NCBI GenBank assembly: GCA_902619825.1
Contig: CACNFT010000002.1
Coordinates: 62,001-126,000, forward strand
DNA: 64,000 nucleotides
DNA from: an uncultured Candidatus Actinomarina sp.
GTDB lineage: Bacteria > Actinomycetota > Acidimicrobiia > Actinomarinales > Actinomarinaceae
Direction of reading: 5' to 3'
The notes beneath the pieces were generated by a model. It was not told where the DNA came from and did no database searches. It worked only from the letters and a program-made list of their open reading frames with translations. The translations under genes were made by a program, and so were the position numbers. Of this stretch, positions 43,693 through 46,130 are shown one piece after another; position 1 is the first letter of the stretch, and the number at the start of each line of letters is the position of its first letter.

Positions 43693-44451
43693 ATGAAAAT
43701 AAAAAATTTACTTAAAGCTGAAAATTGGTGGATAATCATTCTAGCTTTCACTATCATTTGGATGTTATTTACGATATTCACTGAGCCAGAATATACAAAA
43801 GCACTTAATTTCATAATCCCTGGATTAAGAATTACATTTCTATCAACAATAATTTCTTTTCTTATAGCAATTGTTTTAGGTCTTATATCGGGTATTGGTC
43901 GAATTTCTGATAATAAGATAGCCAGCACTTTATCTAGAACATATATCGAATTTATTAGAGGAGTTCCTGTTTTGATATTAATATTCACTATTGCTTTCGT
44001 AGTAGTTGTTGATGCAGCTGAATTTCTAAATATTAATAATGGAAATGTTCCAATGATTATAAGAGCAATAATTGCTTTATCAGTATTTTATGGTGCATAT
44101 ATCGCTGAGGTTTTTAGAGCAGGTATTGAATCTGTATCATCTGGTCAACGTGAAGGTGGAGCATCCCTGGGGATGTCAGAAAGACAAATAATGAGATTTA
44201 TAGTACTTCCCCAAGCTTTCAGAAATATGCTTCCTGCATTAGGTAATGACTTTATATCTATGATGAAAGACTCATCACTACTTTCTGTTTTAGCAGTTGA
44301 AGATTTGACTTACAGAGGTCGTTTATATTCTGGTAGTACATTTAGATTTGCAGAAACATACCTTGTTCTTACAGTTCTCTATCTTATAATTACTTTATTG
44401 CTTTCAGGTTTACAAAGAAGGTTGGAACGAAGGCTTGAAAACACAGAATAA
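43693..44451 (+). CDS. Amino-acid ABC transporter permease (His/Glu/Gln/Arg family)
   Basis: A 252-residue permease of the polar amino-acid family with about five membrane helices. RTYIEFIRGVPVLILIF is the family N-terminal signature and REGGASLGMSERQIMRFIVLP the EAA loop that contacts the ATPase. The ATG at 43693 has GGTGGA at a normal distance; an earlier in-frame codon at 43666 lies within the hairpin and is not used. It pairs with the binding protein just upstream. The ATPase subunit must be encoded elsewhere. Overlaps xerC by 17 bases. Confidence 0.92.
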   Translation: MKIKNLLKAENWWIIILAFTIIWMLFTIFTEPEYTKALNFIIPGLRITFLSTIISFLIAIVLGLISGIGRISDNKIASTLSRTYIEFIRGVPVLILIFTIAFVVVVDAAEFLNINNGNVPMIIRAIIALSVFYGAYIAEVFRAGIESVSSGQREGGASLGMSERQIMRFIVLPQAFRNMLPALGNDFISMMKDSSLLSVLAVEDLTYRGRLYSGSTFRFAETYLVLTVLYLIITLLLSGLQRRLERRLENTE

Positions 44452-45292
44452 AGAATTACTAGAAAAATACATAAATTATCTTGAAAATGTAAAAAACTAT
44501 TCAGATCATACATGCACGGCTTACAAAAATGATTTAGAACAATATTTAGATTATTTAAAAAATACAAAAAAAAATTTATTTGATAATGAAGATTTTGTCG
44601 ATTATTTATTTAGTCTTGAACTTGCAAAGTCTACAATCAATCGAAAACTAACTTCAGTTAATAACTTTCTATTATGGTCCTCAAAACTTGATAAATATAA
44701 AGGAAAAACATTTAGAAAATCAGAAAATCTTAAAACAGAGAAAAAATTACCTAATATTTTGACATCAAATTACATAAATAATCTCATAGATAAATTGCCA
44801 ACATCTACAGCTAAAGATGTTCGTAATAAAGCAATTATTGAATTACTTTATTCTTCAGGTTTAAGAGTTTCCGAATTAGTTAATTTGAAAGTAAATGATG
44901 TAAAAAATGATCGATCTTTGCGGGTTATTGGAAAAGGAAGAAAAGAACGAATACTACCTATGACAGACCAAGCATATAAAATTATATCACTTTGGTTAAA
45001 AAATAATCGTACAGAATTTCTAAAAAATAATAACAATCAATTTATATTCTTAGGTGTAAGAGGACATCAAATTACTGATAGGGAAGTAAGAAGAGTTGTA
45101 AAATTAATTACTGGAACCTTCCCTCATAATATTCGTCATACGTTTGCTACTCATGTACTTGATGGTGGTGCTGATTTACGTGTTGTTCAAGAACTACTAG
45201 GACATTCTGATCCAGGAACAACTCAGATATATACTCATATATCAAAAAAGAAGCTTCAAGAAAAATATAAAAGAACTCATCCAAGGGGTTGA
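44435..45292 (+). CDS. xerC: Tyrosine recombinase XerC/XerD
   Basis: A 285-residue tyrosine recombinase. The N-terminal SAM-like domain (LENVKNYSDHTCTAYKNDL) is followed by the catalytic part with Arg in SSGLRVSELVNL, Lys in KGRKERILPM, HNIRHTFATH, LLGHSDPGTTQIYTH with the nucleophile Tyr. Xer proteins resolve chromosome dimers at dif. Position before rpsB is that of xerC in Actinobacteria, but XerC and XerD are hard to tell apart. The only start is TTG 44435, inside the permease gene. Confidence 0.93.
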   Translation: MKTQNKELLEKYINYLENVKNYSDHTCTAYKNDLEQYLDYLKNTKKNLFDNEDFVDYLFSLELAKSTINRKLTSVNNFLLWSSKLDKYKGKTFRKSENLKTEKKLPNILTSNYINNLIDKLPTSTAKDVRNKAIIELLYSSGLRVSELVNLKVNDVKNDRSLRVIGKGRKERILPMTDQAYKIISLWLKNNRTEFLKNNNNQFIFLGVRGHQITDREVRRVVKLITGTFPHNIRHTFATHVLDGGADLRVVQELLGHSDPGTTQIYTHISKKKLQEKYKRTHPRG

Positions 45293-45332
45293 ATAAAACC
45301 TTTATTTGATTATCATTTAGTTTAAATAGACA

Positions 45333-45394
45333 CCATATTTGCAAGTTTCCTTGGTGAACGAAAGTTTGGAAACCGCGAAAGCAAAGAAATATGG
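45333..45394 (+). ncRNA. Candidate structured leader RNA of rpsB
   Basis: A 62-base unit folds by eye into a junction. The closing stem is CCATATTT (45333-45340) with AAATATGG (45387-45394). Inside are GTTTCC (45345-45350) with GGAAAC (45368-45373), capped by AAC-GAAA-GTT (45357-45366), and a small GC-GAAA-GC hairpin (45375-45382). Both loops are GNRA tetraloops, which is unlikely by chance in AT-rich DNA. It ends 22 bases before the rpsB start. It is probably an S2 autoregulatory leader; I could not match it to a known riboswitch. Confidence 0.55.
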
Positions 45395-45416
45395 GATGAA
45401 TAACCAAAGGAGAAAT

Positions 45417-46130
45417 ATGTCAACAACAATGAAAGACCTGCTCGAAGCAGGAGTTCATTTCGGTCACCAAACACAACGTTGGAATCCAAAAATGGATAAA
45501 TATATATATGGTGATAAAAGTGGAATTCATATACTTGATTTAAGAATTACTTATGAGTCACTTGAAAAAGCACAAGATTTTGTTCAGAAACTTGTAGCTA
45601 ACAGTGGAAAGGTTTTATTTGTAGGTACAAAACCTCAAGCACAAAAAGTTATTGAGGAACAAGCATTGAAAGCTCAAATGCCATATGTAAACCACAGATG
45701 GTTGGGAGGTATGTTAACTAACTTCAAAACGATTATTAAAAGAGTTGTATATCTCAATGAACTTAACGCTTTGGAAAGTTCTGGTGAAATAAATGCTTAT
45801 CCAAAACCTGAAAGATTACGAATCAGAAGAGAAATTGATAAATTAACCAAATCTATTGGAGGAATAGCAAATATGAATAAATTGCCAGAGGCAATATTTA
45901 TTGTTGATTTGTTAAATGAAACTACTGCATTAACTGAAGCAAGCAAATTAGATATACCTATTATCGGTTTAGCGGATTCTAATGTAGATCCAGAAAATGT
46001 TGATTTTGTTATTCCGGGTAATGATGATGCTATTAGATCCATTGAGGTTGTAGCAACTGCAATAGCTGATGCCTGCTTGAAAGGTCTTGGAAAGAGAAAA
46101 GAAGTAGAAGATGGAGAAAATCAAGAATGA
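45417..46130 (+). CDS. rpsB: 30S ribosomal protein S2
   Basis: A 237-residue S2. MKDLLEAGVHFGHQTQRWNPKM, GDKSGIHILDL, VLFVGTKPQAQK, NHRWLGGMLTNFKT and IGLADSNVDPENVDFVIPGNDDA are family signatures. The ATG at 45417 has AAAGGAG at a normal distance; the frame is open upstream to 45339 but that part overlaps the structured leader and is not coding. It overlaps tsf by four bases. Confidence 0.97.
   Translation: MSTTMKDLLEAGVHFGHQTQRWNPKMDKYIYGDKSGIHILDLRITYESLEKAQDFVQKLVANSGKVLFVGTKPQAQKVIEEQALKAQMPYVNHRWLGGMLTNFKTIIKRVVYLNELNALESSGEINAYPKPERLRIRREIDKLTKSIGGIANMNKLPEAIFIVDLLNETTALTEASKLDIPIIGLADSNVDPENVDFVIPGNDDAIRSIEVVATAIADACLKGLGKRKEVEDGENQE

Follow-up and report, generated by a model that had tools for sequence, protein, structure and literature searches.

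What kind of element stands between an xerC-like gene and rpsB, the gene for ribosomal protein S2, in Candidatus Actinomarina, and how might it act on the gene that follows? The window, by which we mean the whole stretch of 64,000 nucleotides that was analysed, belongs to a genome of 1.08 Mb in 13 contigs with a GC content of 29-35%. An earlier note on this DNA had described nested stems with two GNRA tetraloops at 45333-45394 and had taken them for an RNA, by first choice a leader bound by S2, otherwise a small-molecule sensor. Our analysis indicates that the element is very probably an S2 autoregulatory leader, a compact AT-rich form of the rpsB motif (Rfam t44) that covers 45324-45412. This kind of leader is already known; what is new is its presence across Actinomycetota and the placing of its pseudoknot on the ribosome-binding site.

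The locus and its promoter

The genes around the leader, which we take from their translations and from general knowledge to be xerC-like, rpsB, tsf, pyrH, frr and cdsA-like, are listed with the parts of the leader in Table 1. Orthologues of rpsB, identified by tblastn, numbered 36 in the genus and about 200 in the class. Out of 42 genus genomes searched, 36 had rpsB in reach, and these yielded 26 distinct leader sequences. The leader was found at the same position in all 36, and the arrangement of the Shine-Dalgarno (SD) sequence and the ATG seen in the window is common to them.

Table 1. Features of the rpsB locus, in positions of the window
Feature	Position	Strand	Basis or remark
xerC-like recombinase gene	44435-45292		precedes leader in gene order
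-35 box TTGAAT	45289..45294	+	overlaps xerC stop codon; TTGA[AT]T in 36/36 genus loci
-10 box TATCAT	45311..45316	+	TANNNT in 36/36 genus loci
Whole leader RNA (very probably S2 leader)	45324..45412	+	covariance model R2 match 45324-45413
P1 5' strand CCATATTT	45333..45340	+	pairs with 45387-45394, 8 bp; compensatory changes
P2 5' strand GTTTCC	45345..45350	+	6 bp with 45368-45373; formed in all 26 distinct sequences
Pseudoknot strand 1 UUGGU, in P2 bulge	45351..45355	+	genus-invariant; outer positions covary in class
Tip hairpin GAAC-GAAA-GTTT	45356..45367	+	A-U to G-C in two sequences; loop always GAAA/GTAA
Tip core AAC-GAAA-GTT	45357-45366	+	present in sequence
P2 3' strand GGAAAC	45368..45373	+	pairs with 45345-45350
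P3 hairpin GC-GAAA-GC, 2 bp	45375..45382	+	always paired (G-C or G-U); loop varies
P1 3' strand AAATATGG	45387..45394	+	pairs with 45333-45340
Pseudoknot strand 2 ACCAA	45403..45407	+	2-base overlap with SD; genus-invariant; covaries with strand 1 in class
SD sequence AAAGGAG of rpsB	45406..45412	+	genus-invariant; 4 nt before ATG 45417
rpsB, ribosomal protein S2	45417..46130	+	ORF and gene order; tblastn orthologues
tsf, pyrH, frr, cdsA-like	46127, 46739, 47443, 47975	+	ORFs, gene order

In each of the 36 loci, the spacer between TTGA[AT]T and TANNNT is exactly 16 nt, and the distance from TANNNT to the sequence AGACACC is 11-13 nt. From this promoter the transcript is predicted to start at about 45322-45326, and it would therefore begin with the leader. 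A start downstream of 45394, which the earlier note had named as one of two results that would speak against its reading, is not what this conserved promoter predicts. In 36/36 loci the rpsB -35 box lies on the xerC-like stop codon (promoter 45289-45316), so that coding DNA and promoter overlap tightly in this streamlined genome.

When one genome per GTDB species was searched, the core sequence of the leader was found in 35 contigs, and the records carrying it bear only the names Candidatus Actinomarina, Actinomarinales, OCS155 cluster, or Acidimicrobiia, Acidimicrobiaceae and Actinomycetota, which makes the host a marine actinobacterium of the Actinomarina type. By pattern search, each genus genome has a single copy of the core, and it always stands before rpsB. 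The sole exact match to TTGGTGANCGNAAGNTTGG in the class outside Actinomarina was at G074:C146:45134-45152. A viral match, 18 nt long and exact, fell in a phage-like contig without rpsB (L002) and was put down to chance. A search of phage DNA gave, in records without annotation, short weak matches only, which began where rpsB begins.

Fold and covariation within the genus

All the pairings that the earlier note had listed, P1, P2, the tip AAC-GAAA-GTT and the GC-GAAA-GC hairpin, are present where it had placed them. Its limits hold for the stems but not for the full element, which is larger and includes a pseudoknot that had been missed; the leader extends to 45412 because the second pseudoknot strand covers the SD sequence.

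Single-sequence folding of the leader gave a z of -1.38, with 16 of 200 shuffles folding equally well, and the MFE model paired the middle part differently. Because folding energy alone is not significant, the case for the leader rests on comparative evidence. Among the 26 distinct genus sequences, double-sided changes were found in P1 at pairs 4 (U-A/C-G), 5 (A-U/G-C) and 7 (U-A/C-G), in P2 at pairs 1 (G-C/A-U) and 2 (U-A/C-G), and in the tip at pair 3 (A-U/G-C). The covariation that the earlier note had proposed to look for in relatives is thus present in three of its stems. P2 pairs 3-6 are invariant in the genus, and the pairing of P3 is kept throughout. An automatic pair count on a MAFFT alignment supported P2, the tip and P3, and gave P1 as 59% paired because many rows had the 3' strand displaced by a column in the alignment. 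The stem pairs were recounted directly, a count in which L015 was mis-extracted, GGGATG occurring twice in that sequence.

Mean pairwise identity within the genus was 0.858 for the leader, 0.618 for the promoter spacer, 0.786 for rpsB and 0.443 for the fourfold sites of rpsB. As to the two GNRA tetraloops, the first stood, being always GAAA or GTAA in the genus; the second, on P3, varies (GAAA, ATTA, ATAA, ATAT, TTAG, TTTA) and hence does not define the element.

Kinship with the S2 leader family

An Rfam scan of the window, at gathering cut-offs and at E 10, returned nothing relevant, and RF00127 (t44) did not match even at E 10. Across 296 genomes of the phylum, the t44 model gave weak sub-threshold matches in 24, and all of the 20 that were fetched lay directly before rpsB. 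Rfam files RF00127 t44 as 'Gene; sRNA', and its match in E. coli is at L068:461-547; the cut-off of 44 bits excludes every actinobacterial match found.

A covariance model from 15 leaders of the class (R1) matched two genus leaders independently, with E 0.0014 and 0.005, and matched 63 leaders of class and phylum. Those 63 actinobacterial leaders, among which neither Actinomarina nor E. coli is represented, served to build a second model (R2). Run on the window with filters off, R2 gave 45324-45413 as the best match in 64 kb (25.0 bits, E 0.0012; the next at 13.6 bits), its E-values being rough because calibration was short. All 26 genus leaders were matched at the same place, at 19.7-26.4 bits over a background of at most 10.7. 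Part of the score stems from the conserved 3' end, AACAACCA..GGAGA. R2 also matched the E. coli t44 leader (28.2 bits), with P1 and the 3' parts in register and the middle out of register. With default filters the window was reported by neither R1 nor R2, and an R2 search of its own genome did not report it either.

The complete motif occurs in the rpsB upstream regions of many families of the same class. In L100 it reads CACACGUCUGC-UGACCCUCA-CUGGU-CGGGCGCGUCCCG-AAGGGGGUC-AUCCGUGAAACGGAU-..-GCAGGCGGAGGAACAACCAGAAAGGAG, with the parts in the same order as in the window, P3 included. L114 alone folds to the same shape. The GC-rich S2 leaders of family f10 and other families of the class (L089-L146) share with the window the order P1, P2, bulged NUGGU, tip, P3, P1', AACAACCA and AAAGGAG, but differ by longer GC-rich hairpins and by keeping CACACG/GCGGAGG. 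P3 is retained in f10, the closely related sister family, which has a longer hairpin at this position, and several other families are without it. In the phylum at large, R2 leaders were detected in 90 of 296 sampled genomes and 65 of 199 genera, the 90 being a lower bound under strict filters that miss the Actinomarina form. The gene rpsB stood just downstream of 29 of the 30 R2 matches fetched, the remaining one lying near a contig end, which makes 29 of 29 testable. This strict linkage, and homology to the E. coli and proteobacterial S2 leader through such intermediates, support the S2 leader that the earlier note had preferred.

The rpsB motif, or S2 leader, has been listed in Proteobacteria, Cyanobacteria and some Firmicutes (Meyer et al. 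2009, PMC2704228); Actinomycetota, the host phylum here, is absent from that list. The Actinomarina leader and t44 (RF00127) share their place before rpsB-tsf, a pseudoknot in which the junction strand forms five pairs with the 3' extension after P1, and conserved edges, CAC on the 5' side and AACC on the 3' side. They differ in that P1 of Actinomarina is AT-rich and without the near-invariant CACACG/CGGAGG outer bases, and in that its leader scores under any Rfam threshold. At these outer positions the window has GACACCAU / AUGGGAUG, where only ACAC and GGA.G are kept. The outer bases are common among the members that we saw and are not given as defining in PMC2704228; we read their absence as a sign of divergence within the family. 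Compared directly, the E. coli t44 sequence is CACACACGUAUC..GGGGUG..GAUACGUGGAGGCAUAACCCC and that of the window GACACCAU..UUGGUG..AUGGGAUGAAUAACCAA.

The actinobacterial L31 and L17 leaders (Eckert and Weinberg 2020, PMC7247131) resemble the S2 leader in that a ribosomal protein acts back on the mRNA that encodes it, but concern other genes and other ligands; the same paper lists no S2 leader for Actinobacteria. Open-licence papers on rpsB leaders in Actinobacteria yielded nothing further, and an earlier report is possible.

The pseudoknot and a proposed control of translation

UUGGU and ACCAA form five pairs that overlap the SD sequence. The pseudoknot is uninformative within the genus, because both strands are invariant there, and its covariation was scored in the class. 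At position -1, where the base that precedes GGU faces the one that follows ACC, 33 of 44 sequences had a Watson-Crick pair (shuffled mean 15.8), and with one sequence taken per genus so had 23 of 32 (shuffled mean 11.2); no count as high arose in 20,000 shuffles, in a test that disregards kinship between genera. All four pairs, C-G, U-A, G-C and A-U, are found at this position, which is unpaired in about 9 of the 32 genera. Enrichment extends to the next pair outward (16/32 versus 8.1 expected).

L126 and L133, both of genus g75, were left out of this count. They have before rpsB a longer variant, which starts with AACGUCACAGGC, contains CACUGGUCGGG and AAAACCAG, and is matched by R1. Further variants were seen just before rpsB in L137, L143, L145, L147 and L148, from class families that include f13 and f31. 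They have AACCG beside the SD sequence and a hairpin-like stretch, CGGUCG, with no clear P1 or CACACG, and are possibly reduced leaders that retain the pseudoknot part alone.

In E. coli, excess S2 represses rpsB-tsf via the 5'UTR, with S1 needed for efficiency, and the mechanism has been called unclear because the SD sequence and the start codon are outside the operator (PMC10931766). By homology with E. coli, S2 would be the ligand of the Actinomarina leader as well. The rpsB-tsf mRNA would begin just upstream of P1, and S2 in excess of free 30S subunits would bind the folded leader, made of P1, P2 with its bulged UUGGU, the tip and P3. Bound S2 would stabilise the UUGGU/ACCAA pseudoknot, the helix of which ends on the SD sequence, so that 30S loading would be blocked and translation of rpsB and of the genes behind it reduced. 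Since one pseudoknot strand overlaps the SD sequence by 2 bases, the pseudoknot of the family, if stabilised by S2, would occupy the ribosome-binding site. In E. coli, by contrast, this strand lies well upstream of the SD sequence; as the operator there does not include it (PMC10931766), closing of the SD sequence would be specific to the lineage studied here. That the S2 leader of Actinomycetota is a direct lock, with the pseudoknot on or next to the SD sequence and possibly a competing anti-SD helix in addition, is a tentative proposal, though one that we regard as quite possible.

The anti-SD helix could also be the core of a two-fold switch, in which UUCCUUGGU (the P2 5' strand plus the bulge) would pair with ACCAAAGGAG, hiding the SD sequence and competing with P2, while S2, temperature or translation would decide which of the two, the anti-SD form or the P1/P2 form, is adopted. 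RNAalifold selected this helix, its nine pairs are all invariant in the 26 sequences, and the invariance of P2 pairs 3-6 would fit such a dual use. However, its nearest-neighbour energy is -10.6 kcal/mol versus -15.3 for P1, P2, tip and P3 together, no covariation supports it, and the complementarity past the five pseudoknot pairs is absent in class members such as L100; we consider such a switch unlikely.

It appears less likely again that a leader of the same family responds to EF-Ts, or to an S2-S1 complex, and not to S2 alone. This would accord with the position of tsf directly after rpsB and with the requirement for S1 in efficient repression by S2 in E. coli (PMC10931766), but the sole member tested in vivo, that of E. 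coli, is under S2 control, and all 29 testable phylum matches lie directly before rpsB. A small-molecule riboswitch, the second choice of the earlier note, found no support and is very improbable: a compact junction and invariant bases near the SD sequence would suit it, but there is no Rfam riboswitch match, each genus genome has one copy, always before rpsB, and the kinship is with S2 leaders. Hardly any credence can be given to a reading without RNA, be it a conserved DNA site, a small ORF or an S2 that extends further at its N-terminus. In the window the frame stays open upstream as far as 45339, but other genus members have stops in frame or non-triplet length changes, and the stem changes are compensatory.

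With an S2 leader as the preferred reading, the Rfam t44 model has a gap through which the Actinomarina leader is missed. On this reading, S2 leaders occur across Actinomycetota, even in one of the smallest free-living genomes. With the pseudoknot placed on the SD sequence, their actinobacterial form would offer a simple, testable version of the S2 translation stop.
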